From the NCBI RefSeq assembly GCF_030553075.1, contig NZ_CP130701.1:3286001-3350000 (forward strand): a stretch of 64,000 nt of DNA, in the 5' to 3' direction. Of the stretch, positions 4,483-28,644 are shown piece after piece. The notes beneath the pieces are model-generated. The model was not told where the DNA came from. It did not search any database and saw only the letters and a list, made by a program, of their open reading frames with translations. The DNA is from Halomonas sp. I5-271120. Lineage in GTDB: Bacteria > Pseudomonadota > Gammaproteobacteria > Pseudomonadales > Halomonadaceae. The stretch's first letter is position 1, and every line of letters begins with the position of its first letter. Both the position numbers and the translations under genes were made by a program.

Positions 4483-4621
4483 AGTGTTTTTAAGGAATCT
4501 AATTTCTTGCCGGCTCCAAATGATAGTGTCCTGCATGATCACGTTGGAAAGTTTGGGTGGGGTGTGACGTTTTTTGTATAAGTGTCATACGGTGAATTCC
4601 TGGAAGATAGTGATAATTAAA

Positions 4622-5632
4622 ATGAATCTAAAAGGAAAGAAAGTTCTCGTCACAGGTGCGGATGGCTTTATCGGCTCTCATCTTGTAGAAGCTTTGGTAA
4701 GTCAGGGATGTTCCGTTCGAGCCTTTGTGATGTATAACTCCTTCAGCTCCTGGGGATGGCTTGACCATTGTGAGCCCGGTGTTCGCAATGACCTGGATAT
4801 ATTTGCTGGAGATATACGAGACCCGAATGGTGTTCGCCAGGCCATGAAAGGGTGTGACGTCGTCTTCCATCTTGCTGCCCTCATCGCCATTCCCTACTCC
4901 TACCACTCGCCCGATACTTACATCGATACCAATATAAAGGGCACATTGAACGTTGTGCAGGCAGCGCGGGATTTGGACGTGGCGAAGGTCGTGCATACGT
5001 CTACCAGCGAAGTGTATGGAACGGCACGTTACGTACCCATTGACGAAGAGCACCCTCTGCAAGGGCAGTCACCTTATTCCGCGTCGAAGATCGGGGCTGA
5101 CCAACTTGCGTTGTCGTTCCAGCGTTCGTTCTCTACGCCAGTGGCGCTGATTCGTCCGTTCAATACCTATGGACCACGCCAATCGGCCAGGGCTGTGATT
5201 CCCACCATTATCACTCAGCTCGCATCCGGCGCGCGCCGACTGAGCCTCGGTGCATTGCACCCGACCCGAGATTTCAGTTTTGTCTCCGACACTGTGGCCG
5301 GCTTCATGCGCGTGGCGGAGTGCGATGCTGCCGTGGGTGAAGTGATTAATGTCGGCAGCGGCTTTGAAATCAGCATCGGGGATACCGCCGGCCTGATTGC
5401 CGAGCTGATGGGCTGTGAGATTGACATCGGCATCGATGAGCAGCGGTTGCGTCCTCAAAATAGTGAGGTGGAGCGGCTCTGGGCAAGCACTGAGAAAGCC
5501 CACCGATTGCTTGGGCACCAACCCGAGCATGGAGGCTTGGATGGATTGCGTCGTGGACTAGAGAAGACCATCGCCTGGTTCACCGAGAGTGAGAACCTGA
5601 GCCATTACAAAGCGCACCTCTATAACATTTAG
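4622..5632 (+). CDS. legB: NAD-dependent sugar 4,6-dehydratase, LegB type
   Basis: A 336-residue extended SDR expected to convert NDP-GlcNAc (GDP-linked in the Campylobacter pathway) to the 4-keto-6-deoxy sugar, the first committed step toward legionaminic acid. The cofactor motif TGADGFIGSH is at the N-terminus, the YSASK catalytic Tyr/Lys is near residue 160, and RPFNTYGPRQ follows. The stretch VMYNSFSSWGWLD is characteristic of the LegB subgroup. The ATG at 4622 has no good ribosome site. An in-frame GTG at 4610, with GGAAG four nt upstream, could be the real start. The gene heads the nonulosonic-acid cassette, 139 bp after wzc. Confidence 0.88.
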   Translation: MNLKGKKVLVTGADGFIGSHLVEALVSQGCSVRAFVMYNSFSSWGWLDHCEPGVRNDLDIFAGDIRDPNGVRQAMKGCDVVFHLAALIAIPYSYHSPDTYIDTNIKGTLNVVQAARDLDVAKVVHTSTSEVYGTARYVPIDEEHPLQGQSPYSASKIGADQLALSFQRSFSTPVALIRPFNTYGPRQSARAVIPTIITQLASGARRLSLGALHPTRDFSFVSDTVAGFMRVAECDAAVGEVINVGSGFEISIGDTAGLIAELMGCEIDIGIDEQRLRPQNSEVERLWASTEKAHRLLGHQPEHGGLDGLRRGLEKTIAWFTESENLSHYKAHLYNI

Positions 5633-5732
5633 GCGCTGTCTGGAAACTGCCTGAGCTCGCCGACGTTTCAGACAAGGTTAGCACCGATATCAAGCGCACT
5701 GCTGTTGTGCTGTTGAATAGCCAGGAGAGCCA

Positions 5733-6359
5733 GTGAGTGAATTTTTCGTAGTCGGGGGCGGTGGCCACGCCCGGGTGTTGATTCATGGGCTTCTGAAGTT
5801 GGGGCATCAGGTCTATGGCTATACGGCATTGCACGATGAAGGAAGACTGATGGGCGCTCGTTATCTGGGCACCGACTTGTCATTTCATGAAATTGAGACT
5901 CATCGATCTGCATCTGCGGTACTTGGGATGGGGAAGGTATCGGTAGAAGGGCCACGGCTCGCAAGCTTCGAGCAATACCGGGCCCGTGGTTTCAGCTTTC
6001 CGGCCATTTATATGGTGGGCGCTACTGTGCATGACGATGTTCGTGCCGGAGCCGGGACCGTCGTTCTGGATGGAGCTGTGGTCGTCACCGGTAGTCGCCT
6101 GGGTCAGGCCTGTATCGTCAATACCCGTGCCACGGTCGACCACGACTGCGAGCTGGGTAATGACGTTCATGTTGCTCCGGGCGCCACCCTCAGCGGCGGT
6201 GTTGTGATCGGTGATCACTGCATGATCGGAGCGGGCGCCACCATCATTCACTCCGTTCGGGTATGTGCGGGGTGTTTGATTGGTGCCGGCGCTACCTTGA
6301 CTCGCGACATAACCACTCCGGGAACTTATGTCGGCGTTCCAGCCAGGAGAATCTCATGA
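5733..6359 (+). CDS. legH: Sugar N-acetyltransferase, NeuD/PglD/LegH-like
   Basis: A 208-residue acetyl-CoA-dependent transferase. The N-terminus carries the nucleotide-sugar-binding motif FVVGGGGHARVL. The C-terminal half is a left-handed beta-helix of hexapeptide repeats (VHDDVRAGAGTVVLDGAVVV and later turns). In the legionaminic acid route LegH acetylates the 4-amino group that LegC adds. PglD does the same in bacillosamine synthesis, and NeuD O-acetylates sialic acid, so the substrate is inferred from its place between LegB and LegI. The start is GTG, with GGAGAG eight nt upstream. It overlaps legI by 4 nt (ATGA). Confidence 0.82.
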   Translation: MSEFFVVGGGGHARVLIHGLLKLGHQVYGYTALHDEGRLMGARYLGTDLSFHEIETHRSASAVLGMGKVSVEGPRLASFEQYRARGFSFPAIYMVGATVHDDVRAGAGTVVLDGAVVVTGSRLGQACIVNTRATVDHDCELGNDVHVAPGATLSGGVVIGDHCMIGAGATIIHSVRVCAGCLIGAGATLTRDITTPGTYVGVPARRIS

Positions 6360-7375
6360 GCGCTTCACCTTCCACCTTCGTGATCGCTGAGGCCGGGGTG
6401 AATCACAATGGCTCCTTGGACATGGCCATCGAACTTGTCGATACCGCCAAGCAGTGTGGGGCCGATGCCGTCAAGTTCCAGACCTTCAAGGCTGATCGCC
6501 TGGTGACTCGCAATGCCGCTAAGGCGGCCTATCAGCATCAGGCCGTGCCGGGGTCGAACTCCCAGTATGCGATGCTGAAGGCCTTGGAGTTGACGGATGA
6601 CGACTTCCGGCATCTTCATTCCCACTGCTTGGACATCGGCATCGAGTTCCTGTCCAGTCCCTTCGACGCCAGCAGTGCCATCTTCCTGGACGCGCTAGGC
6701 ATGCGTCTGTTCAAGGTTCCCTCTGGGGAGATTACGAACCTGCCTCTCCTGAAGTGCATCGGAGGCTTCGGCAAGCCGGTAATCCTGTCGACCGGCATGT
6801 GTTACTTGGCGGAGGTCGAGGTTGCCCTGAACCTCTTGAAAGAGGCCGGGGCGGGGGACATCACGGTACTGCACTGCGTCACCGAATATCCGGCTCCCTA
6901 TGCTGAGATTAACCTGCTGGCGATGAACACTCTCGCGAGTGCCTTTGGTGTCAGCGTGGGCTACTCCGATCATACGGCAGGTAATGAAATTCCTATCGCT
7001 GCCGTGGCCATGGGCGCCCGTGTGATCGAGAAGCACTTCACTCTGGATACCACCTTGTCGGGCCCCGACCATGCAGCTTCCCTGGCACCGGCGGATTTCC
7101 GCCAGATGGTTCAAGCCATTCGTCATGTCGAAAGCGCCCGTGGCGACGGCCGCAAGTGTCCGGCCCCTTGCGAGCGTCCCAATCTCGATGTAGTCCGCAA
7201 GAGCATCGCGACGGAGTGTCCGATTGCCGAGGGGGAAGTCATCACCCTGGAACACTTGGCATTGAAGCGGCCGGGGAGTGGGCTTGCGCCCAGCCAACTC
7301 GAGATGGTCGTGGGGCGCCGTGCGTCTCGCACCATCGCTGCCGATGAACTCCTCGGCTGGGGAGACCTGGTGTGA
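6356..7375 (+). CDS. legI: Legionaminic acid synthase, NeuB family
   Basis: A 339-residue synthase that condenses phosphoenolpyruvate with a hexosamine (2,4-diacetamido-2,4,6-trideoxymannose for LegI) to form a nine-carbon nonulosonic acid. It has the NeuB barrel (IAEAGVNHNGS, KFQTFKADRL, FKVPSGEI, LHCVTEYPAP, GYSDHT, EKHFTLD), then a C-terminal SAF domain (about residues 275-339). Length is normal. The ATG at 6356 overlaps the stop of the previous gene and has AGGAGA upstream; longer in-frame starts would overlap the acetyltransferase. Legionaminic rather than sialic or pseudaminic acid is inferred from the neighbours LegB, PtmE and LegF. Confidence 0.92.
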   Translation: MSASPSTFVIAEAGVNHNGSLDMAIELVDTAKQCGADAVKFQTFKADRLVTRNAAKAAYQHQAVPGSNSQYAMLKALELTDDDFRHLHSHCLDIGIEFLSSPFDASSAIFLDALGMRLFKVPSGEITNLPLLKCIGGFGKPVILSTGMCYLAEVEVALNLLKEAGAGDITVLHCVTEYPAPYAEINLLAMNTLASAFGVSVGYSDHTAGNEIPIAAVAMGARVIEKHFTLDTTLSGPDHAASLAPADFRQMVQAIRHVESARGDGRKCPAPCERPNLDVVRKSIATECPIAEGEVITLEHLALKRPGSGLAPSQLEMVVGRRASRTIAADELLGWGDLV

Positions 7376-8568
7376 GCAGTCGACGTATATGGGTCCTATC
7401 GACCACTCGTGCCGACTATGGCCTGCTTTATTGGCTGTTACGCGAGATCGACGAGGACCCCGAGCTGGAGCTGATGCTGACGGTCAGCGGGTCCCACCTG
7501 TCGACCGAATTTGGTGAGACCGTTCGCGAGATTGAGCGCGATGGTTTCCGTATTCATCGCCGTCTTGAGGTACTGCTGTCTTCTGATAGCCGCACGGCGA
7601 TGGTCAAAGCGATGGGACTGACCATGCTGTCCTGTGCCGAGTCCTTGGCGGAGGATCGCCCTGATCTGCTGGTGTTATTGGGAGACCGGTTCGAGATCGT
7701 ACCGGTAGCACTCGCCGCGGTGGCGCACGGTATTCCTCTGGTGCACCTGCACGGTGGCGAAACCAGCCGTGGTGCCCTCGATGAGTACTTCCGTCACGCT
7801 GTCACCAAACTTGCCAATATCCATTTTCCTGCGACCGAGGTGTATAGGCGCCGCATCATTCAGATGGGAGAGGACCCGGCATGGGTGTTCAACTACGGTG
7901 CGCCGGGCCTGGATCACCTTCATCGCAGTGAGCCGGTTAGCCGCGATGCCTTGGAAGAGGTCCTCGGCATATCGCTGGACCGGCCAACGGCCATCGCGAC
8001 CTTTCATCCCGCCACCAGCGATATGACGGCCGGCTGCAGGTCACAGGTAGCAAATCTGCTGGAGGCACTCGAGGCGTGTGACAACCTCCAGGTGGTTTTC
8101 TCCAAGGCCAATGCCGATATCCAGGGGCGGGATATCAATCTAGCGCTGGCTCGCTGGTGTGCAGATCATCCTGATCGCAGTCGCCTTTTCGACAACCTTG
8201 GACCACTGGTTTACCAGGGGTGCCTTCGCCATCTCGACCTGATGTTGGGTAACTCCTCAAGTGGTCTCGTTGAAGCGCCGTCTTTTGGGCTTCCTGTGGT
8301 GAATATCGGGTCTCGCCAGGAAGGTCGCTTAGCCGCCGCCAATGTCATATCAGTGGACAATCGAGTCGACGAGATTCGTCGGGGCATTGCCCTTGCCCTG
8401 AGCCCCGAATTTCGAGCGCAACTCATCCATCTGCAAAATCCCTATGATCGCTACGGCGATGGTTGGACCTCGCGACGGATAAAAGAAACCTTGAAGGTTG
8501 TTCCTCTTGATACCGGGGTGACCAAAAAAGGATTTATCGATGCCGCTATGGCAGCCGGGAACGAATGA
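7372..8568 (+). CDS. legG: NDP-sugar 2-epimerase (hydrolysing), NeuC/LegG type
   Basis: A 398-residue enzyme of the GT-B-fold 2-epimerase family. It removes the nucleotide and inverts C2, giving the free 2,4-diacetamido-mannose that LegI uses. Signatures are STTRADYGLLYWLL at the N-terminus, LLGDRFEIVPVALAA, HLHGGETSRGALDEYFRH and GNSSSGLVEAPSFGLPVVNIGSRQ. The GTG start overlaps the legI stop by 4 nt (GTGA), showing tight translational coupling. The order legI-legG-ptmE matches the Campylobacter jejuni flagellar ptm locus. Confidence 0.93.
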   Translation: MSSRRIWVLSTTRADYGLLYWLLREIDEDPELELMLTVSGSHLSTEFGETVREIERDGFRIHRRLEVLLSSDSRTAMVKAMGLTMLSCAESLAEDRPDLLVLLGDRFEIVPVALAAVAHGIPLVHLHGGETSRGALDEYFRHAVTKLANIHFPATEVYRRRIIQMGEDPAWVFNYGAPGLDHLHRSEPVSRDALEEVLGISLDRPTAIATFHPATSDMTAGCRSQVANLLEALEACDNLQVVFSKANADIQGRDINLALARWCADHPDRSRLFDNLGPLVYQGCLRHLDLMLGNSSSGLVEAPSFGLPVVNIGSRQEGRLAAANVISVDNRVDEIRRGIALALSPEFRAQLIHLQNPYDRYGDGWTSRRIKETLKVVPLDTGVTKKGFIDAAMAAGNE

Positions 8569-8582
8569 GGGGAGGTTATACG

Positions 8583-9641
8583 ATGTTCGACTCACTTTTG
8601 ATTGATGAGCATCGCAAGGTCCTTGCGGCGTTACACCAACTGGAAGAGACCCGGCGTAAGATTCTCTACGTCACCAATGAGGAAGGCCAGTTGCGTGGGA
8701 CACTAACAGATGGTGACGTGCGGCGTTGGATTCTGGGTGGTGGAGACCTGGAAGGGCAGGTCGGCGATGTGTGCAATCACATTCCCTATTCTGCGCGTGA
8801 AGGCTATCGAATGGCTGATATCGAAAGTGCCATGTCGACGCACAAGATCACATCGGTGCCAGTGCTGGATGACGATAATTGCATCATCGATGTTTTATTC
8901 TGGGAAGACCTCTTCCAAAAGGAAGGTAGCATCAAGAAGCAGGAGCCCCTCGCGTTACCGGTTGTCGTCATGGCCGGTGGGAAAGGCTCTCGGCTTGCTC
9001 CTTTCACCAGCGTATTGCCCAAGCCGCTGATTCCGGTCGGAGAAAAGACCGCTATCGAGATGATCATCGACTCATTCGTCCAGTGTGGTGTCGATGATTT
9101 TTATCTGTCGGTCAATTACAAGTCGAAGTTGATTCAGGCCTATTTCGAGGAACTTGAACCGTCCTATCGCATTAGCTATATCCATGAGGAAAAGCCACTG
9201 GGGACGGGGGGTGGCTTGCATGCACTGATTGGTCGCTTTGAAGGCGATCTTATCGTGACCAATTGCGATGTCATTATCAAGGCTGACTACCATGCCCTGA
9301 TGGCACATCACGGCCAGGAGAATAACGACATCACCATGGTTGTGTCACTGCGCCATTACGATATTCCTTATGGCATCTGTGACATTGTCGATAACGGCCA
9401 GCTCTGCGAGATGCGGGAAAAGCCCCATTACAACTTCCTGGTTAACACCGGACTTTATGTGCTCAAGTCCTCGGTTCTCAATCTGATTCCCGAGAATCAG
9501 TTTTACCACCTCACCGATTTGATCCAGGACGTCAAAGAGCGGGGTGGACGTGTCGGCGTTTACCCCATTAGCGACAAGGCCTGGTTGGATACCGGTGAAT
9601 GGCAACAGTACTGCGAAACCATGGCGCAGCTACGCGCTTGA
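8583..9641 (+). CDS. ptmE: CBS-domain sugar-1-phosphate nucleotidyltransferase, PtmE-like
   Basis: A 352-residue protein with two N-terminal CBS domains (about residues 1-120), then a nucleotidyltransferase domain starting VVVMAGGKGSRLAPFTSVL and continuing LPKPLIPVGEK. C. jejuni PtmE has this layout and makes GDP-glucosamine from GlcN-1-P and GTP, feeding the GDP-linked legionaminic acid pathway. Its place between legG and legF supports the same role here. The ATG at 8583 follows GGGGAGG at good spacing, 14 nt after the legG stop. The CBS pair suggests adenine-nucleotide sensing, which is inference. Confidence 0.88.
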   Translation: MFDSLLIDEHRKVLAALHQLEETRRKILYVTNEEGQLRGTLTDGDVRRWILGGGDLEGQVGDVCNHIPYSAREGYRMADIESAMSTHKITSVPVLDDDNCIIDVLFWEDLFQKEGSIKKQEPLALPVVVMAGGKGSRLAPFTSVLPKPLIPVGEKTAIEMIIDSFVQCGVDDFYLSVNYKSKLIQAYFEELEPSYRISYIHEEKPLGTGGGLHALIGRFEGDLIVTNCDVIIKADYHALMAHHGQENNDITMVVSLRHYDIPYGICDIVDNGQLCEMREKPHYNFLVNTGLYVLKSSVLNLIPENQFYHLTDLIQDVKERGGRVGVYPISDKAWLDTGEWQQYCETMAQLRA

Positions 9642-9690
9642 TGCCTCTCCGTGACAGCCTCTGCATGTCCTTTGTTTGAAGGTGAACGCA

Positions 9691-10407
9691 ATGATTGAAA
9701 GCCAACGCGTCGTGGCCATGATCCCGGCTCGCGGCGGCAGCAAGACCATCCCTGGGAAGAACCTACGTGATCTCAATGGCAGGCCATTGATTGCCTGGAC
9801 CATTGAGTTGGCCTTGAGCCTCGAGGAAGTGGATCGGGTCATTGTATCCACGGACAGCGAAGAAATTGCCGCCGTTGCACGCCAATATGGCGCTGAGGCC
9901 GTTTCTCGCCCTCCCGAGTTGGCAACTGATACCGCCTTGGTCCTGGATGCTGTGCGTGATCTCGCGCATCGCCTTCATCAAGAAGGTGAGGACGCGGCCT
10001 ATGCACTCCTATTGGAGCCGACGGCACCCCTGCGCCGCGGTATCGATGTGCAGTCCTGCCTGCAACGCTTACATCAAGATGGGTTGGACTCGGTGGCAAC
10101 GTTCAAGCTTGCCGACCTGAACCCGCACCGGGCTTGGCGCATCCATGACGGGATGCCGGAAACCTTCGTAGAGGGCAGCGTGCCCTGGTTACCGCGGCAG
10201 CAATTGCCGGAGGCCTTTCAGCTCAGCGGCGAGGTTTATGCCTTCCGCCTCGACACGCTCGCAAAAGCGACGCGGGGCATGCTGTTCGGGCGGACCGGGG
10301 CTGTGATTGTCGATGGAAGGGCATCATTGGACATCGATAACGAACAGGATTTTCTTATCGCGGAATTCATCACCAGGGAGAGCCAGGATGAACAGATCTC
10401 TGCATGA
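9691..10407 (+). CDS. legF: CMP-legionaminic acid synthetase, LegF/NeuA family
   Basis: A 238-residue acylneuraminate cytidylyltransferase that activates the nonulosonic acid with CTP for transfer. It shows the [19 protein letters not shown]-binding motif at the N-terminus, [13 protein letters not shown], and [10 protein letters not shown]. Length fits LegF/PtmB. The ATG at 9691 has GAAGGTGA upstream at good spacing, so an in-frame TTG at 9676 is unlikely. It overlaps the next gene by 20 nt, as expected in a compact cassette. Confidence 0.92.
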
Positions 10408-11185
10408 CTTACTCAATCTTGAGGGACGCACTGCACTAATCAGTGGTGGTGCCGGTCATCTTGGGCTCGCCATGGGTGAGGCGCTTGCCGAGCTAGGGGC
10501 CAACGTAGTGATTGCCAGCCGTGATGCCGAACGGTGCAAGGCGATCGCGGCTGGGTGGTGTGATCGTTGGCCAGCCGCGCAGCACCGGGGAATCGCACTC
10601 GATGTTACCGACCGGGAGTCGGTAGCCCGCTGCGTAGAGTATTTGCAAGACACTTGCGGCGGTCTGAATATCCTGGTCAACAATGCCTGGTCGGGCCGCA
10701 AGAACAGCTGGCAGAGCATTGATGAAGATGACTGGTACTACGATGTGGACATCAGTCTGAATTCAGTATTCCGGATGGTGAAACAGTGCCACCCCCTGCT
10801 AAAAGCCAGTGCTGGCAGCATCATCAACATCTCGTCCATGTATGGTCATGTGGCTCCCGACTACCGCCTTTATGAAGGCACTGACCATGCCAACCCGCCC
10901 AGCTATGGCGCGGCCAAGGCCGGTGTCCTGCAATTCACTCGCTACCTGGCCAGTTTTCTCTCGCCTGATGCCATACGTGTCAACGCAATCAGTCCGGGGG
11001 CCTTCCCGCATGCCATAACCCAGGATAACCAGGCCTTCATGGAGCGCTTGAAGAGCAAGGCCCCCGCAGGTCGCCTAGGAGAGCCAGAGGATCTGAAGGG
11101 AGTCGTAGCGCTGCTGGCAAGTGATGCCGGTGCTTACATGACGGGACAGAACCTGTGTGTCGACGGTGGCTGGGCGATCTGGTGA
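10388..11185 (+). CDS. ptmA: Short-chain dehydrogenase, PtmA-like
   Basis: A 265-residue classical SDR. It has the cofactor motif SGGAGHLG near residue 20, NNAWSG, the catalytic ISSMYG serine, and YGAAKAG as the YxxxK pair. The C-terminus VDGGWAIW is typical. In C. jejuni, ptmA sits directly after ptmB (legF) in the legionaminic acid locus, as here. The exact reaction is not something I can assign from sequence. The start is the ATG at 10388, six nt after GGGAG, inside the end of legF. A second SDR of the same kind lies 2.2 kb downstream. Confidence 0.8.
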
Positions 11186-11232
11186 ATCGGTGCATCAAGG
11201 GTGAGCCACGAGAAGGGAAGGTGGGAGACGCG

Positions 11233-12432
11233 ATGAAAGTATGTCTGGTCAACGATACCTCCGATGACCCGAATTGGGGCGCTCGAGCGACCTCTTTGGC
11301 GCTTCGCGAGCTGATTCATGAAGCAGGCGGGCAGGTCGAATCGACGCTGTATCAGTACCGTATTGGCATTGCGCAGACGGAGGATATTGCGTCAGTTCGA
11401 GACGCTGAGGTTCTATCAGGGCAGGTGGAAGATGTCGCGCCGAGCCGTTGGCAAGAGTTTGAGTCTAGAGCCCGCGAGGTCATGGATGGCGTCATCTTTC
11501 CGGAAATATATACCGCTCTGGCCATTAGTGACGTCGTGCTAGTCAGCGGCGAAGGCTGCATCTATGACTGTACCCGGCAAAGTCGCATGATCTACTTCAT
11601 CGCCTATCTGGCAAAGCGCTTTTTCGGCAAGCCAACGGCGATAGTAAACCACAGTATTGTGATGAACGACCCGGTATTGAGGGAAATCGCCGACCATGTC
11701 TATCCGTTGTTGGATGACATCGTGTTTCGCGAGCCAGACTCGGCGTTGGCCTGTTCCCGCGGGCTGGGTCGCGTAGCGTCTGATGCCGCCTATCTGTACC
11801 AACCACAAGGCACAGAATGGTGGTCTCGGCTGGGATCACCTCAGGAATCGTCTCAGGATGAGAACGAAGGCGATATCTTGCGCGGTGGAGCCTTCGATCC
11901 GCAGGCTCCTTATGCCTGCATCGGTGGAGGTTCGGTGTATTTTCGTGGACTCAAGCCGGGGTTCGATGCGGTACCGAGCTTCAGCAAACTATGTCGAGCG
12001 CTGCAGGCATGTGTCGGGCAGGTCATTCTTACCGCTTCATCGGGCAAGGATCTGCGCATCATGGAGCCCGTTGCTGAACGCCTCGACCTGCCTTTGGCCG
12101 GTGTCAATTTGCCTATCCAATCGGCGGTAAATCTGATGGGGAATGCCCAGGTTTACATTGGCGCTCGCTGGCATCCCAGCATCTTTGCACATAGCGGCGG
12201 TACACCGGTCATCGCCCTGAATCGGCATACTGTCAAAATGGATGCCTTTCTCAAGCAGGCGGACATGCAGCAGAGCGCCTTCGATCCATTCGCGATCGAG
12301 GATCAGTTTGACGATCTGATGGCAGAGGTCAAAGCACACCTGCAGGCGGGAGAAGGGCTCAGAAGACGCTTGCGCAGCAGGGCGCTTCGGCTCGCCGGTA
12401 TGGCGCGTGAGAACGTGCGTCTCCTGACCTAA
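11233..12432 (+). CDS. Polysaccharide pyruvyltransferase-family protein
   Basis: A 399-residue protein of the CsaB/WcaK/AmsJ family, members of which add pyruvate ketals from phosphoenolpyruvate or act as related transferases. Supporting motifs are an N-terminal DDPNWGARATSLALREL, the glycine-rich CIGGGSVYF, and IGARWHPSIFAHSGGTPVIAL near residue 310, which carries the family's Arg-x-His. The ATG at 11233 follows GGGAG. It interrupts what would otherwise be a continuous ptmA and ptmF-like series, so it may modify the nonulosonic acid or a neighbouring residue; that is inference. No membrane segment is seen. Confidence 0.75.
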   Translation: MKVCLVNDTSDDPNWGARATSLALRELIHEAGGQVESTLYQYRIGIAQTEDIASVRDAEVLSGQVEDVAPSRWQEFESRAREVMDGVIFPEIYTALAISDVVLVSGEGCIYDCTRQSRMIYFIAYLAKRFFGKPTAIVNHSIVMNDPVLREIADHVYPLLDDIVFREPDSALACSRGLGRVASDAAYLYQPQGTEWWSRLGSPQESSQDENEGDILRGGAFDPQAPYACIGGGSVYFRGLKPGFDAVPSFSKLCRALQACVGQVILTASSGKDLRIMEPVAERLDLPLAGVNLPIQSAVNLMGNAQVYIGARWHPSIFAHSGGTPVIALNRHTVKMDAFLKQADMQQSAFDPFAIEDQFDDLMAEVKAHLQAGEGLRRRLRSRALRLAGMARENVRLLT

Positions 12433-12497
12433 GTCCATTCTGTCTATTGAATCTCGTGATACCCAACTCCTGCCCTTAATTTAGAGGCTTACGCTCC

Positions 12498-13427
12498 ATG
12501 GTCACGCGTGTCGGCATGCTGGGAATGAGTGATGGTAACGGCCATCCGTTCTCTTTCTCCGCGATTATCAATGGTTACTCAGACAATGGGATGCGTCATT
12601 CCGGCTGGCCAGGCATCTATGACTACGTACGTCGCCGCCATGGATCGGAATTCGGCGTGGGCGATCTGCGCGTCACCCATGCCTGGACCCAGGACGCCGA
12701 ACAGACGGCGGCCCTATGCAGGGCCACAAGCATTTCGCATGCCGTCTCGTCACCCACCGATATGCTCGGTGTAGTAGACGCGGTGATCATCGCTCGGGAC
12801 GATCATGCCTCCCACCGCCCCCTGGCCATGCCCTTTCTGGAAGCCGGTATACCCGTATTTATCGATAAACCTCTGACACTGGATCTCGACGAGTTGCGCT
12901 GGTTCACGCCTTACCTTGAGAGCGGCTTGCTTATGTCCTGCTCGGGAATGCGCTATGCCAAGGAATTGGACGCATGGCGAGCAGGACAGATCGATCATGG
13001 CGAGATGAGACTGGTTCGCGGAACCATCGTCAACGATTGGGAGCGCTATGGCGTGCATCTTCTGGACGCCATCCTACCGTTGATGCCATCACGTCCGATA
13101 TCAGTAAGCGCCCTGCCGGCCGCCCATGACTCCTTGATCGTGGTGATGGGGGACGGTGTGCCGGTCCACATAGATGCACTCGGACAGGTGCCGGCGATGT
13201 TTCGCGTAGAACTGATGAGTAGCCACCATATCAGCTGTTTCGATATTACTGACAACTTCTCGATGTTTCGCCGCACGCTCTGGGCTTTCTGGCGGCAGAT
13301 AGTAGATGGACATCCCGCGATTCCCGCTGTGGAGACAGTCGACGTCATTCGTACATTGATCGCTGGAAAATTAGCGCTTCAGAACCGAAAGGAGGTGTCA
13401 TTAGGTGGATTCGACAACCTTTTATGA
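12498..13427 (+). CDS. Gfo/Idh/MocA-family oxidoreductase
   Basis: A 309-residue NAD(P)-dependent oxidoreductase. The N-terminal Rossmann region is atypical, with GMLGMSDGNGHPFS where GxGxxG is usual. VVDAVIIARDDHASH and FIDKPLTLDLDEL follow (the DKP replaces the common EKP) and support the family call. The C-terminal domain is shorter than in typical sugar dehydrogenases. A Gfo/Idh-like gene (ptmF) occurs in Campylobacter legionaminic acid loci, so a role in the same pathway is plausible but unproven. It overlaps the next SDR gene by 23 nt. Confidence 0.72.
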   Translation: MVTRVGMLGMSDGNGHPFSFSAIINGYSDNGMRHSGWPGIYDYVRRRHGSEFGVGDLRVTHAWTQDAEQTAALCRATSISHAVSSPTDMLGVVDAVIIARDDHASHRPLAMPFLEAGIPVFIDKPLTLDLDELRWFTPYLESGLLMSCSGMRYAKELDAWRAGQIDHGEMRLVRGTIVNDWERYGVHLLDAILPLMPSRPISVSALPAAHDSLIVVMGDGVPVHIDALGQVPAMFRVELMSSHHISCFDITDNFSMFRRTLWAFWRQIVDGHPAIPAVETVDVIRTLIAGKLALQNRKEVSLGGFDNLL

Positions 13428-14232
13428 CCTGTTTGATCTCAAGGGACGTGTAGCAATCGTGACAGGTGGACTCGGCATTCTGGGGCAGCATTTCTGCCAA
13501 GCTCTGGCGGAATTTGGTGCCAATGTGGTGGTGGCCGACCTGGATGGAGAGTCTGCGGAGCGATATGCGGCTGAGCTAGGACGGGATACGGGCGTGCGTT
13601 GTATCGGCCTGCCCTGTGATGTCAGCGACGAGGCTTCGGTGGAAGCACTAGTCACTAGCACGTTGGAGCACTTCGGTGCCATCGATATTCTTCACAATAA
13701 TGCGGCCAGCAAGTCCGATGATCTCGGGGCCTTCTTCACACCGGTAGAAGAATACAGTCTGGCGGAATGGAGAAAGATAATGGCCGTTAATCTGGATGGA
13801 GTATTCCTGGTGTCGCGCAGTGTGGGTCGCCGCATGATTGAGCAGGGTAGGGGGGGGAGCATCATCCATACTGGCTCCATCTATGGCCAGTTAGGCAGTG
13901 ACCCACGCATTTATCAGGGGTCTGAATACCTGGGAATCGCCATTAACACGCCGCCTGTCTATGCCGCTTCAAAGGCAGGAGTGTCTGGGCTGGCGCGGTA
14001 TCTGGCCACTAATTGGGCGTCACACGGTATCCGGGTCAACACCCTGATTCCTGGTGGAGTGCAAAGCGGTCAGAACGCGGCATTCGTCGATCGCTACTCC
14101 CAGCGAGTACCGATGGGGCGGATGGGGCAGCCCGACGATCTAGTGGGAGCCCTCATCTTCCTGGCCTCGGACGCCTCGCGATACGTCACCGGTCAGTGCC
14201 TGTATGTCGATGGCGGACTCAGCGCCTGGTAG
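13405..14232 (+). CDS. Second short-chain dehydrogenase, PtmA-like
   Basis: A 275-residue classical SDR with TGGLGILG, HNNAAS, the HTGSIYG serine, and YAASKAG as the catalytic YxxxK. It matches the SDR at 10388-11185 along its whole length (ELGANVV against [15 protein letters not shown] against RVNTLIPG, DGGWAIW against DGGLSAW), so the two are paralogues. The GTG start at 13405 lies eight nt after a near-perfect AAAGGAGGT ribosome site, which decides the start. It overlaps the Gfo/Idh gene and is presumably translated with it. The substrate is unknown. Confidence 0.78.
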   Translation: MDSTTFYDLFDLKGRVAIVTGGLGILGQHFCQALAEFGANVVVADLDGESAERYAAELGRDTGVRCIGLPCDVSDEASVEALVTSTLEHFGAIDILHNNAASKSDDLGAFFTPVEEYSLAEWRKIMAVNLDGVFLVSRSVGRRMIEQGRGGSIIHTGSIYGQLGSDPRIYQGSEYLGIAINTPPVYAASKAGVSGLARYLATNWASHGIRVNTLIPGGVQSGQNAAFVDRYSQRVPMGRMGQPDDLVGALIFLASDASRYVTGQCLYVDGGLSAW

Positions 14233-14284
14233 CTCACAAAAGATATTGATAACAATACATACAGAAGACTAGGTAGCGACGATC

Positions 14285-15280
14285 ATGGCGAATAATCTTA
14301 CCATCGTGATGTATCACTATGTCCGCCCCTTGAAAGAGTCCCGCTATCCCGATCTCAAGGCTCTTGAATCGGAGAATTTTCGTGGCCAGCTTGATTACAT
14401 ACAGCGTCATTACACAGTAGTGAACATGCAAGACGTCATTGCCGCAACCCGCGGTGAGGCCAGGCTGCCGGAGCAAGCCATCCTGCTTACCTTTGACGAT
14501 GGCTATCGGGATCACTACGAGCATGTCTTGCCGCTGCTCGTTGAGCGTGGCGTGCAAGGGAGTTTCTTTCCTCCCGCTTGCGCGGTGCGTGAAGGGCGCG
14601 TGTTGGACGTCAACAAGATTCACTTCACCCTTGCCAGTAGCACCAATCCACAGCGGCTGATCGCCGAGATATTTGCCGTCATGGATGCTCACCGCAATGA
14701 ATACGGTTTGCCCGGCAATGCGGAATGCTTTGATGCCTTTTCAAGAGAAAGCCGCTATGACAGTGCCGACGTGACCTTCATCAAGCGCATCCTACAGAAG
14801 GGACTGCCGGCGCCGATGCGCGGGCCTCTCATTGATCGCCTGTTTCGTCAATTCGTGACCAATGACGAGCGCGACTTTGCCGCAGAGCTGTACATGGATG
14901 ATACCCAGCTGCGTGAATTGCTTGACGCCGGCATGTTCATTGGCAGTCACGGTGATCAGCATCTGTGGCTGAATACGCTTAGTGCCGACGAACAGCGGAG
15001 TGAAGTTGAGACCAGCCTGGAATTCATGGGTGATATTGGTGTGCCACAACATGATTGGGTCATGTGCTATCCCTACGGCGGCTATAACAATGCCCTACTG
15101 GCGCTTTTACGGGAAAAGGGCTGTGCACTGGGGTTGACTGTTGACGTGGGTGTGGCAGATCTAGCTCTAACAGACCCTCTTTGCCTGCCAAGGTTGGACA
15201 CTAACGACTTACCCAGTTCGCTTGATGTCTATTCCGTTCACAGTGCGCCTGCCAGCGATGGCCATCAACTCGAGGCGTAA
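14285..15280 (+). CDS. Polysaccharide deacetylase-family (NodB) protein
   Basis: A 331-residue carbohydrate esterase 4 homology protein. It has LTFDDGYRDHYE (the metal-binding TFDDG), SHGDQHLW (the HxxxH metal site) and MCYPYGGYN (the third NodB motif). Between the first two motifs sits an insertion of about 110 residues (about 105-220) that is not part of the minimal fold. No signal peptide is seen, so it probably acts in the cytoplasm on a precursor or lipid-linked sugar rather than on finished polymer. Its neighbour is a DUF4910 hydrolase, 31 nt downstream. Confidence 0.8.
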   Translation: MANNLTIVMYHYVRPLKESRYPDLKALESENFRGQLDYIQRHYTVVNMQDVIAATRGEARLPEQAILLTFDDGYRDHYEHVLPLLVERGVQGSFFPPACAVREGRVLDVNKIHFTLASSTNPQRLIAEIFAVMDAHRNEYGLPGNAECFDAFSRESRYDSADVTFIKRILQKGLPAPMRGPLIDRLFRQFVTNDERDFAAELYMDDTQLRELLDAGMFIGSHGDQHLWLNTLSADEQRSEVETSLEFMGDIGVPQHDWVMCYPYGGYNNALLALLREKGCALGLTVDVGVADLALTDPLCLPRLDTNDLPSSLDVYSVHSAPASDGHQLEA

Positions 15281-15311
15281 ACTCATATAAGTCGTCGTAA
15301 CAGGACTTCCC

Positions 15312-16601
15312 ATGACTGACATGATGAAACTGCTATCCGACCTGACGCCGCTCAATCGCGTGGTTTGCTCCAGCGACTTTGACGATACCATTCGCTACAT
15401 GCAGGACATTCTGCCATTTCGAGAACATACCTATTCTGCTGATAATAACTATAATGGTTGGGTGATTCCCAATAAATGGGATATCAAAGCCGCTAGAATT
15501 GATTATCAGGGAAAAACGATCTACGAGAGCGGACATCCGCTGGCCGTCATGGCTCTCTCCACCTCTTTCAGTGGCACCGTGGATCGCGAGGAACTGCGGC
15601 GCCACCTCCATTATGATCACCGTTACCCCGATGCTGTCCCTTTCCACTTCCGTCAGCTCTTTCGTAGTTGGCAGCGAGACTGGGGGTTCTGTGTGCCAAA
15701 AACCTTCTACGACGGCCTACAGGAAGGGGAGTACGATGTTCTGATCGAGACTGAAGAGGCGCCGGGAACGCTGCGGGTGATAGATTACACTCTCGAGGGG
15801 AAGTCCCCTGAAACTATCATTTTTGCTGCCAACTTGGACCACCCCGGTGTGGCTAACGACGGCCTATCCGGTGTAGCGGTGGGAGTGTCCCTGTTTGAGG
15901 CATTACGCCGGCGTCAGGAAAAGACCAACTTCAGCTACCGACTGGTACTGGCACCAGGAATCATCGGCAATGAGTATTATCTTGGCCACCTAGCGAGTGC
16001 CGAGAAAGAGCACTTGCTAGAAGGGGTCATGCTGGAAATGCTAGGTTCACCTACCGAGCTTGCCCTTCAGCATTCTCGTCATCGAGAGTCCAATATAGAG
16101 TTAGCAGTGGCCGAGTCGCTAGTAGCGAATGACTGTGAACATCATACTGGCGAATTTGAAAGCGAGTTACTTAACGACGAGTACATCTGGGAAGCCTATG
16201 GCATTCCCATGGCATCATTATCACGCTTCCCGTATCCCGAATATCATACCGATCGCGATAATCTGGACTTAATGCGACCCGAAAGGTTGGAAGAGGCCGT
16301 GAAGGTACTACTGGATGCTGTCGAGACCTTGGAGTCGAGTTCTATCGTGCGCAAGCGTTTCTCAGGAAACATTTGCCTTTCCAACCCCGAGTATGATCTC
16401 TACATTGATCCGGGACAGGTCGCCTTTGGCGATATGCCTGACGAACAGCGCCGTCGCATGCGACTATTGATGGACACAATTCCTACCCTGACTAGGCCTA
16501 CGAGCATCAATATTCTGGCGGAGAGAGTTGGTTTGCCATTAACGATGGTCGAGAATTATCTCGCAAAATGGGTTCGTCATGGACTGCTGGAACTGACCTG
16601 A
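15312..16601 (+). CDS. DUF4910 aminopeptidase-like zinc hydrolase
   Basis: A 429-residue protein of the DUF4910/DUF2172 aminopeptidase-like family, with an M28-type fold expected in the middle. Candidate metal or catalytic residues lie in NLDHPGVANDGLSG (about residues 175-190), IIGNEYYLG, and EYHTDRDNLD. The last 70 residues look like a winged-helix domain (LAERVGLPLTMVENYLAKWV). Such proteins occur in surface-glycan and flagellin-glycosylation clusters, but their reaction is not established to my knowledge. With the NodB protein upstream, removal or exchange of an acyl or aminoacyl group on an amino sugar is a reasonable guess. Confidence 0.7.
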   Translation: MTDMMKLLSDLTPLNRVVCSSDFDDTIRYMQDILPFREHTYSADNNYNGWVIPNKWDIKAARIDYQGKTIYESGHPLAVMALSTSFSGTVDREELRRHLHYDHRYPDAVPFHFRQLFRSWQRDWGFCVPKTFYDGLQEGEYDVLIETEEAPGTLRVIDYTLEGKSPETIIFAANLDHPGVANDGLSGVAVGVSLFEALRRRQEKTNFSYRLVLAPGIIGNEYYLGHLASAEKEHLLEGVMLEMLGSPTELALQHSRHRESNIELAVAESLVANDCEHHTGEFESELLNDEYIWEAYGIPMASLSRFPYPEYHTDRDNLDLMRPERLEEAVKVLLDAVETLESSSIVRKRFSGNICLSNPEYDLYIDPGQVAFGDMPDEQRRRMRLLMDTIPTLTRPTSINILAERVGLPLTMVENYLAKWVRHGLLELT

Positions 16602-16729
16602 TTTTTCTCGCCTTGTCGATAAGTCTTGAGTCTCATCTAAACTATTGATTAGTCACTTGTTTATAGGTGTTTTGCAAGTATCGCTGTATTTTTTAAGTGG
16701 CTTTCAATCCTTTATTGGGAATGAGTAAA

Positions 16730-18535
16730 ATGTTCAAAAGTATAAAAGAACTGTATTCCCTGTTGAACAAAGAGCAGCGAGATAAACTCCTTGTCATGCA
16801 GGTCATGGTAGTTTTTATGTCCTTCTCTGAGCTGGCAGGTGTCATTTCCGTTGGGCCTTTTATGGCCTTGGTTGGTGACATGAGCAGGCTCGAAGGGGAC
16901 TCCATATTGGCTGAAATCTACCGTTCCAGCGGGGCTTCTTCCCCTTCTGATTTTATCTTCTGGCTTGGTATTGGTGTATTATTACTTCTTAGTATTACTA
17001 CGCTGATATCGATAGTTACCACCTGGCAACTCGAAATGTTCGGTCATCGTGTAGGGGCGGAACTTTCGAGTCGTTTGTTTAAACATTACATGTATCAGCC
17101 CTGGCTATTTCACGCTAATGGCAGCAGCAGTCAATTGTCCAAACAAATTGCTCAGGAGTGTCAGCGTATTACGGTATCTGTAATAACTCCTTTGATGAAT
17201 ATGAATGCCAAGGCTGTTATGGCAAGCCTGATGGCGACGGCACTGTTCATTTACGATCCGCTAGTAGCGACAGTCGGCTTGCTAATTTTTATGATCGCCT
17301 ATCTTCTGCTCTACCGTACAGTGCGCCGTCGCTTGATCAACAATGGAACGACAGTATCGGAAACTCAGGCTCTACGATTCAAGTTGATGGCAGAGGGTTT
17401 TGGAGGCATCAAGGATGCACTCCTGTTAGGTCGGCAGCGCGTCTTTACCGAACGTTTCGAAAAAGTGAGCCAGCGTTTTGCCAATGCGCAGGGAGCTACT
17501 CTGGCGATGAGCCAGGTACCCCGCTTTGCGATGGAGTTAGTCGCCTTCGGTGCGGTGATATTCCTCGTGCTTTACCTTTTGGCTGCTCATCAAGGTAACT
17601 TGGGCACCATCCTGCCGGTGCTTTCCGTGTATGCGCTGGCTGGCTTCAAGCTTCTTCCGGCCTTTCAGCAGATCTACTCCAGTGTTTCGCGGGTGCGCGG
17701 TAATCTGGCCGCATTCGAGTCGATGCGAGATGACCTGCACGCCAGTGCAGTGAGCAGTGTTGATCAGGAGCGGTCTGATCCCGAGAAAGCTGGCCGCTGG
17801 GTGCCTCGGCAATCCATTGAATTCCGCGACGTCCACTTTCAATATCCGGGCAAACAAGCGTCTGCCGTAGATGGGCTGACACTGGAGATTACAGCTAATC
17901 AAGTGATCGGCCTTGTCGGAGCCTCCGGCTCTGGGAAGTCGACTGCCATCGACCTGCTTCTAGGGTTGATCGACCCTTCAAGTGGCCAGGTACTCATCGA
18001 TGGGGAGCCCCTGACCACTAAGAATAAACGCGCATGGCAGAACAGTCTGGGTCTGGTGCCTCAAAGCATTTTCCTTTCTGATACGAGCATTCGCGAGAAT
18101 ATTGCTTTTGGGCTTCCGCCGTCTTCAATCAATGACGTGCGCGTAAGACGTGCGGCTAATTTGGCTAATCTCGATGAACTGATATCGGAGCTCCCCGAGG
18201 GACTGGAAACCGATGTGGGCGAACGTGGTGTCCAGCTCTCTGGCGGGCAGCGACAGCGGATCGGCATCGCCCGTGCCTTGTATCATGATGCCGACGTACT
18301 GGTGTTGGATGAAGCAACCAGTGCCTTGGATGGCATCACTGAGGAACTGGTTATGGACGCCATTCATGAGTTTTCAGGCACCAAGACGATCGTCATTATT
18401 GCTCATCGCCTCGCTACCGTGAAGCAGTGCGACTGTATCTATCTGATGAAGGATGGAAGAGTTATTGATCAGGGGCGATTTCAAGACCTGGTAATTCGTA
18501 ACGATACTTTTAAGCGGATGGCGGAACGAGCCTGA
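16730..18535 (+). CDS. ABC transporter, PglK/MsbA-like lipid-linked oligosaccharide flippase
   Basis: A 601-residue half-transporter with an N-terminal membrane domain of about six helices (residues 1-320) fused to an ATPase domain. ATPase motifs are Walker A GLVGASGSGKST, signature [15 protein letters not shown], and Walker B VLVLDEATSALD. In this context it probably flips undecaprenyl-linked oligosaccharide, as PglK does in Campylobacter, since no Wzx-type flippase is visible. The ATG at 16730 has TGGGA nine nt upstream; an ATG at 16721 is too close to it. From here the DNA becomes clearly richer in A and T. Confidence 0.85.
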   Translation: MFKSIKELYSLLNKEQRDKLLVMQVMVVFMSFSELAGVISVGPFMALVGDMSRLEGDSILAEIYRSSGASSPSDFIFWLGIGVLLLLSITTLISIVTTWQLEMFGHRVGAELSSRLFKHYMYQPWLFHANGSSSQLSKQIAQECQRITVSVITPLMNMNAKAVMASLMATALFIYDPLVATVGLLIFMIAYLLLYRTVRRRLINNGTTVSETQALRFKLMAEGFGGIKDALLLGRQRVFTERFEKVSQRFANAQGATLAMSQVPRFAMELVAFGAVIFLVLYLLAAHQGNLGTILPVLSVYALAGFKLLPAFQQIYSSVSRVRGNLAAFESMRDDLHASAVSSVDQERSDPEKAGRWVPRQSIEFRDVHFQYPGKQASAVDGLTLEITANQVIGLVGASGSGKSTAIDLLLGLIDPSSGQVLIDGEPLTTKNKRAWQNSLGLVPQSIFLSDTSIRENIAFGLPPSSINDVRVRRAANLANLDELISELPEGLETDVGERGVQLSGGQRQRIGIARALYHDADVLVLDEATSALDGITEELVMDAIHEFSGTKTIVIIAHRLATVKQCDCIYLMKDGRVIDQGRFQDLVIRNDTFKRMAERA

Positions 18536-18649
18536 GTCGTCTCACTACTGTTTCTCCGGCCATTAAATCCTGCCAGTAGGTGGGGTCGGTAATAAATTGC
18601 CTGCCAGTGAAAGAATACTAGGCCTTCCATAGCTGAGGAGTTTTTCAGG

Positions 18650-27471: not shown

Positions 27472-28644
27472 ATGACTACTCCCTCATTTTCTCCCTGGCC
27501 TGCTTTCACTGACGAAGAAGCCGATATCGTCAGGCAGGTGATACTTTCCAACAAGGTGAACTACTGGACCGGTAATGAAGGGCGTTTATTCGAAAGCGAG
27601 TTTGCTCGCTTTGCGGGTACCGAATACGCCGTTGCTGTTTCCAACGGCACCACGGCCCTGGACCTGGCGATGAAGGCGCTGGGAATCGGTGTGGGCGATG
27701 AAGTGGTGGTCACTTCTCGAACCTTCATGGCGTCGGTGTCCTCCATCGTCACCGCTGGTGCAGTGCCTGTCTTCGCGGATGTCGATCGCGACTCTCAGAA
27801 CATTACGCCTAACACCGTCGTGCCTTTGATTACGTCGCGCACCAAAGCCATTATCGCGGTGCACTTGGCTGGCTGGCCCTGTGACATGGACGGTCTGATG
27901 TCGCTCGCAGAAAGCCGCGGTCTCTATTTGATCGAGGACTGTGCTCAAGCGCATGGGGCTACCTGGCGCGCGCGCAGTGTTGGTGGGATCGGGCATGTCG
28001 GCGCCTGGTCCTTCTGTCAGGACAAGATCATGTCTACCGGCGGGGAGGGGGGCATGGTCACCACCAATGACCGGTCTCTGTGGCAACGGATGTGGGCCTA
28101 CAAGGATCATGGCAAGAGTTGGGAGGCGGTCTACGAGCGGGAGCATCCGCCGGGTTTTCGCTGGCTGCATGAATCCTTCGGCACCAACTGGCGCCTGACC
28201 GAGATGCAGGCGGCCATTGGCCGGCTGCAGCTGCGCCGGATGCCGGACTGGACACGGCAGCGTCGTGACAATCTGGAGCGGATTTGGCAGGCGGCGAGAG
28301 CCTGTGGCCTGCGGGTGCCTGAGTTGCCAGGGCATGTCGGACACGCCGCTTACAAGGCCTATGTGTTTATTGATCCGCTGTCGCTGCGGCCAGGGTGGGA
28401 TCGTGATCGGATCATCGACGAAATACAACAGCGGGGAGTTCCGTGTCTGGGGGGGAGTTGTTCCGAGGTGTATCGCGAAAAGGCCTTCGATGACACGGGG
28501 TGGCGGCCAGCTCATGCCTTGCCGGTTGCAGCCGAACTGGGGAAGACCAGCATCATGTTTCTGGTCCATCCTACGTTGACCCCGGAGGAGATCGAACGCA
28601 CTTGCCTGGCGTTACAGGAGGTAATGGCTCTAGCTGCGGGCTGA
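27472..28644 (+). CDS. DegT/DnrJ/EryC1/StrS PLP-dependent aminotransferase
   Basis: A 390-residue sugar aminotransferase. Family signatures are AVSNGTTALDLAMKALGIG, EVVVTSRTFMASVSS, LIEDCAQAHGA, and SFCQDKIMSTGGEGGM, which contains the PLP-binding lysine. It should aminate the 4-keto group of a 4-keto-6-deoxy HexNAc. Being next to the PglC-like gene suggests it makes the diamino sugar that starts the repeat unit (PglE role). It is also the only candidate in this window for the LegC step. AAGGTG precedes the ATG. It is GC-rich again, unlike the preceding 10 kb, and is the last gene of the rightward run. Confidence 0.87.
   Translation: MTTPSFSPWPAFTDEEADIVRQVILSNKVNYWTGNEGRLFESEFARFAGTEYAVAVSNGTTALDLAMKALGIGVGDEVVVTSRTFMASVSSIVTAGAVPVFADVDRDSQNITPNTVVPLITSRTKAIIAVHLAGWPCDMDGLMSLAESRGLYLIEDCAQAHGATWRARSVGGIGHVGAWSFCQDKIMSTGGEGGMVTTNDRSLWQRMWAYKDHGKSWEAVYEREHPPGFRWLHESFGTNWRLTEMQAAIGRLQLRRMPDWTRQRRDNLERIWQAARACGLRVPELPGHVGHAAYKAYVFIDPLSLRPGWDRDRIIDEIQQRGVPCLGGSCSEVYREKAFDDTGWRPAHALPVAAELGKTSIMFLVHPTLTPEEIERTCLALQEVMALAAG

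Follow-up and report, generated by a model that had tools for sequence, protein, structure and literature searches.

The DNA analysed here, called the window, is a stretch of 64,000 nt from Halomonas sp. I5-271120 (contig NZ_CP130701.1, positions 3,286,001 to 3,350,000). The subject is a block of five genes behind a cassette of the legionaminic acid (Leg) type, Leg being a nonulosonic acid (NulO), together with the cytidine monophosphate (CMP)-NulO synthetase LegF and the short-chain dehydrogenase/reductase (SDR) PtmA that directly precede them. The five genes encode, in order, a WcaK-like protein (PT), an atypical oxidoreductase (Gfo), a second SDR (SDR2), a deacetylase (NodB) and a metallohydrolase (DUF4910). 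The source genome is 4.04 Mb in size, and the nearest named match of the window Gfo gene is from Onishia taeanensis (99% identity). Between positions 836 and 28644 the window holds Wza- and Wzc-like genes, the Leg-type cassette, the five block genes, an ABC transporter, glycosyltransferases, an initiating sugar transferase and an aminotransferase. A sequence-only reading made earlier had described five open reading frames (ORFs) packed tightly and directly 3' of the cassette, and the coordinates (Table 1) and gaps agree with this. From LegF to the DUF4910 gene the successive spacings are -20, 47, 65, -23, 52 and 31 nt, that is, LegF overlaps PtmA, Gfo overlaps SDR2, and the remaining gaps are 31-65 nt. 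The Pfam models matched in the block are PS_pyruv_trans, GFO_IDH_MocA, adh_short_C2/adh_short, Polysacc_deac_1, and DUF4910 with DUF2172 and Peptidase_M28; all of them pass their cut-offs except one of five SDR models. Terminator-like matches on both strands of 4000-19000 numbered 6, fewer than the shuffle mean of 13.0, so there is no sign of an operon break in this region. The G+C content is 51-57% in the five block genes and 51-60% in the genes from LegB to PtmA, which bears out the earlier statement that the block resembles the cassette in composition. The break, which had been placed directly behind the block, comes one gene later: the DUF4910 gene has 51.3% G+C, the ABC transporter next downstream 50.7%, and the drop to about 40% begins at 18650.

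Table 1. Positions in the window of the core genes, the accessory genes, the Leg-type cassette and two further genes of the locus
Feature	Coordinates	Strand	Evidence
LegF, CMP-NulO synthetase, core gene 1	9676..10407	+	CTP_transf_3; solved CMP-Neu5Ac synthetase at 3.5e-29
PtmA-like SDR, core gene 2	10388..11185	+	Ser-Tyr-Lys in 53/53; own clade in tree
Gfo/Idh/MocA oxidoreductase, atypical subfamily, core gene 3	12498..13427	+	PF01408 41.5 vs cut-off 24; AlphaFold2 model
SDR2, second SDR, core gene 4	13405..14232	+	Y186, K190 in 51/51; S152 in 50/51
NodB / CE4-type deacetylase	14285..15280	+	PF01522 68.8 bits
DUF4910/M28-like metallohydrolase, divergent subfamily	15312..16601	+	PF16254 143.6 bits, cut-off passed
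PT, WcaK-like protein of glycosyltransferase B (GT-B) fold, lineage add-on	11233..12432	+	PF04230 over cut-off
LegB, NAD-dependent 4,6-dehydratase	4574..5632	+	TIGR04180 525.9 bits, cut-off 475; start likely ~4637
LegH / NeuD-type sugar N-acetyltransferase	5733..6359	+	TIGR03570 178 bits, cut-off 160.8
LegI, NeuB-family NulO synthase	6263..7375	+	TIGR03569 461.4, cut-off 399.65; real start probably after 6263
LegG, hydrolysing 2-epimerase	7372..8568	+	TIGR03568 409.5, cut-off 235.9
PtmE-like CBS + nucleotidyltransferase	8565..9641	+	PF00571 and PF00483
PglK/MsbA-like ABC transporter	16697..18535	+	NF050066 310 bits, under cut-off 1000
DegT aminotransferase, Pcryo_0638 type	27472..28644	+	PDB 7L7X 566.5 bits; LegC model 175 of 420

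A survey based on 32 Gfo sequences yielded 73 genome loci (locus numbers L), which cover about 12 phyla including Halobacteria, Bacillota, Acidobacteriota, Bacteroidota, Campylobacterota and Pseudomonadota; the phyla are taken from record titles, which may mislead, many records are metagenome bins, and L024 and L025 are near-alike though titled as two phyla. Homologues at 1e-3 numbered 2843 of 4388 candidates for Gfo, at least 4737 for NodB and at least 42 for PT. Neighbours were called by the best match above set bit scores, distances being counted on the Gfo strand and presence on either strand; LegH had no threshold in the presence table, where its zeros carry no meaning. On the same strand as Gfo, SDR2 was found within 1.5 kb in 62 of the 73 loci and PtmA within 3 kb in 52; for LegF the number was 57 at 3 kb and 62 at 10 kb. 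Among adjacent labelled ORFs, the succession Gfo-SDR2 was counted 57 times and the successions PtmA-Gfo and LegF-PtmA 43 times each; the ORFs were called from the earliest start codon, and overlaps in these neighbour-order counts are thus overstated. No aminotransferase or dehydratase was constant in the core among the survey loci. An unrelated adh_short SDR (cluster c2, median 250 amino acids) occurs in 11/73 loci, mostly in the PtmA slot; it stands directly after LegF in eight loci and directly before Gfo in eight. Matches left uncounted below threshold were DUF4910 in L079 (109 bits) and PtmE in L052 (122 bits) and L078 (26 bits).

NodB and DUF4910 occurred together in 27/73 loci, which span seven named phyla by title, and one of them alone in 2; the number of pair loci is 27 at the looser and 26 at the stricter DUF4910 threshold. 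In the solitary NodB, that of L067, neither aspartate of the metal site is kept. A close PT was present in 11/73 loci, ten of them in Halomonadaceae, and all 11 hold the NodB-DUF4910 pair. We concluded that LegF, PtmA, Gfo and SDR2 form an older core, that NodB and DUF4910 are an optional accessory pair to it, and that PT is a separate, lineage-bound add-on. The five genes therefore do not behave as the single module that had been proposed, and PtmA, which had been set outside the block, belongs within the core. The block is more than a chance arrangement, since its catalytic residues are conserved (see below) and its gene order recurs in other phyla.

The possibility that the five genes might be found mostly apart from legI and legF, raised in the sequence-only reading, does not describe the survey: LegI, LegF or LegG lay within 10 kb of Gfo in 64/73 loci. 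NeuB was sought in the genomes of 69 of the 73 loci (L071 and L010-L012 were left out) and was found at 1e-20 in 66, comprising 46/46 of a first, hand-chosen set, each at 1.2e-82 or better, and 20/23 of a second set. At 1e-60 it was present in 65/69 Gfo genomes and in 96/249 sampled Pseudomonadota, own genome included (Fisher p 3e-18, a test that takes no account of ancestry or phylum). Among 149 Campylobacterales genomes, a PtmE match was obtained in 97 at 1e-15 and in 33 at 4e-43 or better, and Gfo in 1; within the window's own order Gfo occurred in 6/390 genomes, own included. As Leg is common without this Gfo, the core would be a tailoring set and no part of basic Leg synthesis.

In Gfo the GFO_IDH_MocA match is limited to residues 56-133. 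Its AlphaFold2 model (predicted local distance difference test, pLDDT, 95) shows a two-domain fold whose nearest Foldseek matches include inositol dehydrogenases as well as GenD2, KanD2 and GnnA, enzymes that make keto sugars. The predicted fold and the Pfam cut-off together place Gfo in the Gfo/Idh/MocA superfamily. K124, of the motif DKP, and H187 are invariant in 32 aligned rows. The catalytic residues of both SDRs are likewise conserved, the lone exception in SDR2 being L058 with Thr for Ser. In a midpoint-rooted SDR tree, from which 10/137 rows were dropped for length, PtmA and SDR2 form the two main clades, and the Acinetobacter SDR falls on the SDR2 side (supports 100/99, 84/80).

The metal site of NodB, Asp-Asp plus His-xxx-His, is kept (D71 and D72 in 28/29, H222 and H226 in 29/29), and inspection of the N-terminus alone gave no evident signal peptide. 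In DUF4910, the probable metal-binding residues, which we take to be those known from the M28 family, are H177 (26/28), D183 (28/28) and H312 (28/28). The window protein and 27 core proteins form one clade of the DUF4910 tree (local support 0.977), apart from 29 even-sample proteins; L079 has the only core-locus DUF4910 outside it. DUF4910 as such was rejected as a marker of the module, the wider family being present in 30/398 Pseudomonadota (own included), mostly in other contexts. Among 30 independent DUF4910 regions from 28 genomes (G900 excluded; 29 are in the tree), 8 had a LegI-type match and 22 none, and a NodB of this kind was found in 0/30. The 8, in which DUF4910 lies near NeuB-type genes and apart from this NodB or Gfo, are L134, L136, L138, L139, L143, L149, L150 and L153.

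The NodB-DUF4910 pair and acetamidino genes were not found in the same locus. Acetamidino clusters (c0, c1 or c4) are present in 16/73 Gfo loci, none of which has the pair; the names come from one member each, c0 matching WbuX with 392 bits (cut-off 203), c1 AglZ/HisF2 with 342 (310) and c4 HisH. Of the 52 loci with full flanks, 20 have the pair, 12 acetamidino genes and 20 neither (p 0.0016). Both sets follow lineages, so this non-overlap is a lead and no proof. The acetamidino module (WbuX amidotransferase, HisF2, HisH) resembles the pair in that it edits an N-substituent in the same kind of locus, but the two share neither a gene nor a locus. In the haloarchaeal loci L040, L041, L046, L047 and L071, a NodB-like protein (112-142 bits, below threshold) and formyltransferase-like genes stand around LegF and Gfo, a formyltransferase-like cluster (c13) directly following Gfo in four of the five; Pfam was run on one NodB-like and two c13 proteins. 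Such a pairing, suggestive of deacetylation followed by formylation, would favour a role of NodB in acyl editing.

The Pfam match of PT covers residues 292-332 alone, that is, 41 of the 280 PS_pyruv_trans model positions. Its AlphaFold2 model (pLDDT 91) has a GT-B-like fold, with UDP-GlcNAc (uridine diphosphate N-acetylglucosamine) 2-epimerases as best PDB matches. The pair loci L027, L029, L031, L033, L034 and L035, outside Halomonadaceae, each have a distant PT-like protein upstream of LegH/LegI, which at 66-84 bits was below threshold and left uncounted; WcaK-like proteins may thus be more widespread in pair loci than the close PT family indicates.

Gene modules that follow the same principle have been published. 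The antigen of E. coli O108 carries a derivative of 8-epi-Leg (8eLeg). That of E. coli O61 bears 8eLeg5Ac7Ac (PMC3628348), the module lgaABCDEF/elaABC has been linked to 8eLeg and lgaABCDEFG to Leg (PMC9676051), and the genes beside lga are held to decide which epimer is made (PMC5595891). Among 175 Acinetobacter genomes (genus assigned by DNA likeness), 9 had a LegG match. In two of these nine Leg loci, L114 and L117, which we infer to be elaABC loci, PtmE is followed by a PtmF-type Gfo/Idh, a CMP-synthetase and an SDR; of these three genes, another six loci hold just the CMP-synthetase, and the remaining one is different. Among 5426 E. coli genomes, 23 show a match to the L114 stretch, which in 15 extends over 80% or more of it, and 16 have a full neuC-neuB pair of this kind. 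Four E. coli loci were inspected: those with O108- and O61-family flippases and L125 hold PtmE-Gfo/Idh-CMP-synthetase-SDR, the SDR of L125 being split, and that of strain NT1F31 holds PtmE-CMP-synthetase only.

The elaABC/O61-O108 set is like the window in having a Gfo/Idh, a CMP-NulO synthetase and an SDR directly behind the Leg cassette, a likeness in enzyme kind and not in subfamily. The window differs in its Gfo subfamily, in having two SDRs instead of one, in the order LegF-PtmA-Gfo-SDR2 and in the added NodB and DUF4910. Its SDRs are 26-32% identical to those of this set, its PtmE 32.6% identical to the O61-type nucleotidyltransferase of E. coli, and its Gfo 27.6% identical to the O108 Gfo/Idh over 156 residues. 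In Campylobacter and Plesiomonas the set PtmA-LegF-PtmF-PtmE has the same enzyme kinds around LegF (PMC4481668), and the Helicobacter PtmA of L085 is 53% identical to that of the window, but PtmF is a canonical Gfo/Idh that is not matched by the window Gfo family. The Campylobacterales stretches examined, 4 kb long, showed no SDR2, NodB or DUF4910. A hidden Markov model of the window Gfo family matched none of 5 Campylobacterales ORFs, of which four are PtmF to judge by their position, and as the two kinds also occur together in L076 and L057, the identification of Gfo with PtmF was rejected.

Two further modules were compared. In Acinetobacter baumannii, aciABCD and aciAECD, four genes beside the Leg set, give acinetaminic (Aci) and 8-epiacinetaminic acid, and the swap of AciB (adh_short, 246 amino acids) for AciE (adh_short_C2, 265 amino acids) alters the epimer (PMC5595891). 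The likeness of this module to the core is drawn by description. The swap recalls the c2 SDR in the PtmA slot, which occurs in L015, L019, L022, L024, L025, L033, L039, L041, L067, L070 and L073. In Acinetobacter prophages, epaA-epaB, a CMP-synthetase/reductase fusion plus an SDR, makes 8-epi-pseudaminic acid, as found by gene addition and nuclear magnetic resonance (PMC12053666). It shares with the window a CMP-synthetase domain, a reductase and an SDR as well as NulO epimerisation, and differs in having an aldo-keto reductase for Gfo/Idh, pseudaminic acid as substrate and prophages as carriers. A row of an aldo-keto reductase-like ORF, Gfo, SDR and LegF occurs in L122 and L123 and may be compared with the EpaA fusion.

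On this basis the reading we favour is a redox epimerisation of Leg or CMP-Leg, probably at C8, with removal or exchange of an N-acyl group, and on it our confidence is evenly balanced. LegF would activate a Leg-type sugar as CMP-NulO, and PtmA, Gfo and SDR2 would act as an oxidise/reduce relay on the NulO, free or CMP-linked, probably ahead of its incorporation into the cell coat. One relay enzyme would convert a side-chain hydroxyl, most likely at C8 and possibly at C7, to a ketone, and another would put the hydride back on the opposite face, so that an epimer would result, for instance 8-epi-Leg or an isomer of the Aci type. NodB and DUF4910 would edit N-acyl groups, an acetyl at N5 or N7 being removed or exchanged, and in some lineages PT would add a further group or serve as a GT-B transferase. 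The core is read as an epimerisation set because of the contrast, in E. coli as in Acinetobacter, between Leg loci with and without a Gfo/Idh and SDR, the 8eLeg5Ac7Ac of O61, the rule on lga neighbours and epaA-epaB. Oxidation or epimerisation plus acyl removal or exchange, as suggested from the start, thus continues to be the best reading, by analogy with known epimer modules. A more specific form, in which the atypical Gfo and the two SDRs reset one or two side-chain stereocentres of Leg or CMP-Leg and NodB-DUF4910 then edits the N-acyl group to give a NulO isomer not yet seen, we put forward as tentative and rather doubtful.

A number of observations weigh against the epimerisation reading. 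The oxidoreductases are three, one above what an epimerisation needs. Gfo lies outside the ElaA/PtmF subfamily and occurs together with PtmF in L076 and L057, and the reaction itself may therefore fall outside the analogy. According to the alignment and the model, Gfo has no GxGxxG dinucleotide loop and GxSxGNGHP in its place, in which S11, G13, N14, G15, H16 and P17 are invariant in 32 rows. The DUF4910 subfamily is without the glutamate of PETIG (Gly in the window), an invariant Glu221 being nearby, and in L034 and L037 Arg replaces H177, by which the first metal ligand is lost. In nine of the 73 Gfo loci (L021, L024, L028, L038, L042, L048, L063, L069 and L081) LegI, LegF and LegG are all absent within 10 kb; seven of them are on cut-off stretches, only L048 and L063 having full flanks, and in seven NeuB occurs elsewhere in the genome. 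NeuB at 1e-20 was not found in 3/69 Gfo genomes (L024, L042 and L044, metagenome-derived by title), and NeuB itself is common, 6/14 control genomes matching at 1e-60. In addition, LegC (TIGR04181, cut-off 420) was not found in the cassette, and its best match in the own genome has 176 bits. The LegC model was run on 28 genomes, and its cut-off was passed by 0/12 Halomonadaceae and by 10/16 other Gfo genomes. With no LegC in the cassette, even Leg as the substrate is presumptive.

A last point of this kind, the Plesiomonas ptmA transposon mutant that lost its flagella and so fits a needed precursor step (PMC4481668), also speaks for a rival in which the substrate of PtmA, Gfo and SDR2 is an early one, a hexose phosphate or a guanosine diphosphate (GDP)-hexosamine, and the three supply the precursor instead of altering the finished sugar, a role that PtmA has been suggested to have in Leg synthesis of the Campylobacter type. 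The same source assigns ptmA to the opening (GDP-GlcNAc) part of the Leg pathway; in the window PtmE lies directly upstream of LegF, and it was found within 10 kb in 39/73 Gfo loci. However, when the 52 full-flank loci are considered, PtmE (at least 130 bits, same strand, within 10 kb) is present in 29 and missing in 23, whereas SDR2 is present in 47 and LegF in 49. In E. coli and Acinetobacter, Leg clusters of the plain type hold PtmE with no detectable Gfo/Idh or SDR, so that the precursor does not in every case depend on these, and the genes in question sit with the CMP-synthetase, away from LegB and LegG. We consider this rival unlikely.

It seems decidedly unlikely that NodB, DUF4910 and PT serve the polymer, or a different sugar in the repeat unit, and have no more than the operon in common with the Leg genes. 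Genes for other sugars, namely a TviB-type dehydrogenase, a WbpM-like dehydratase and AsnB, are indeed present in the locus, and DUF4910 elsewhere often stands apart from NulO genes (22/30 regions), but NodB and the own-clade DUF4910 travel together with the Gfo core in 27 loci, never with acetamidino genes, and such a NodB is absent from all 30 other DUF4910 regions. Least probable of all is a net oxidation, in which the relay would leave a keto, deoxy or dehydrated NulO (for instance 8-keto or 4-deoxy) to be finished by NodB and DUF4910: the presence of three oxidoreductases, the atypical glycine loop in one of these, and GenD2, KanD2 and GnnA (titled a 3-dehydrogenase) among the nearest Gfo folds are in its favour, but SDR, oxidoreductase and CMP-synthetase sets of known product yield epimers (PMC5595891, PMC12053666) and the core is without a constant aminotransferase or dehydratase.

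The idea that the core makes 4-epi-Leg, from the Legionella serogroup tables (PMC3694923), was dropped because Leg genes are given as not found in 4eLeg strains in PMC5595891. In the Legionella loci L061, L062 and L064, from three species, the core lies near another Gfo/Idh gene (c5), with an acetamidino-type gene in two of them.

As for the other genes of the cassette and locus (Table 1), LegB, LegI, LegG and LegH all exceed the cut-offs of their equivalog or subfamily NCBIfam models. LegF is under the PseF cut-off (130.9 vs 205.7) and passes no curated model of its own. Judged from sequence, the Pcryo_0638-type aminotransferase at 27472 could be a possible stand-in for LegC; Pcryo_0638 has been shown to be active on the same substrate as PglE (PMC8040287). 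The ABC transporter at 16697 is likely the flippase of the same locus, and an ABC transporter is also the next gene after DUF4910 in L010-L013. At 18650-20080 lies a Capsule_synth (PF05159) protein, a candidate CMP-NulO transferase for the locus; this family includes CMP-Kdo transferases.

Mobile elements were also searched. Gfo had no match in the phage collection, in which the SDR matches look like generic SDRs. In plasmids it was matched in 10 records, 3 of them covering at least 80% of the query, the best being 46.5% identical and from a haloarchaeon. Two near-alike IMG/VR contigs, L110 and L111, predicted to be viral, carry a smaller set of this kind, with at about 7959-16399 a Gfo, an SDR and a DegT-like aminotransferase, L110 in addition a LegF-like ORF, and the PHROGs names on L110 include a helicase loader and DNA methyltransferases; this set is possibly a virus-borne NulO tailoring set. 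CAKLQF02/CAKLQH02 (L112), labelled 'Acinetobacter phage MD-2021a', reach up to 378 kb and, in the stretch inspected, have bacterial housekeeping genes beside prophage-type genes, which gives them the look of host assemblies.

In the open-licence part of PubMed Central we found no paper joining 'legionaminic acid' with DUF4910, none joining it with 'short-chain dehydrogenase' and 'polysaccharide deacetylase', and no description of this gene assembly or of the Gfo subfamily. The block had been put forward as an undescribed sub-pathway. That is too broad, modules of the same logic (elaABC, aciABCD and epaAB) being published, though elaABC and epaAB, at least, draw on other subfamilies. What appears to be new, to judge from the papers searched, is the assembly and the Gfo subfamily; NulO tailoring modules as such were already known.

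NulO epimers are surface antigens, and the enzymes that set the stereochemistry at C7 and C8 are known from few organisms. With the core next to NulO genes in about 12 phyla, epimerised NulOs would be expected in acidobacteria, haloarchaea, bacilli and halomonads, groups that have seldom been examined for them. If the non-overlap of NodB-DUF4910 and acetamidino genes holds, it would provide a genomic rule for predicting N-substituents.

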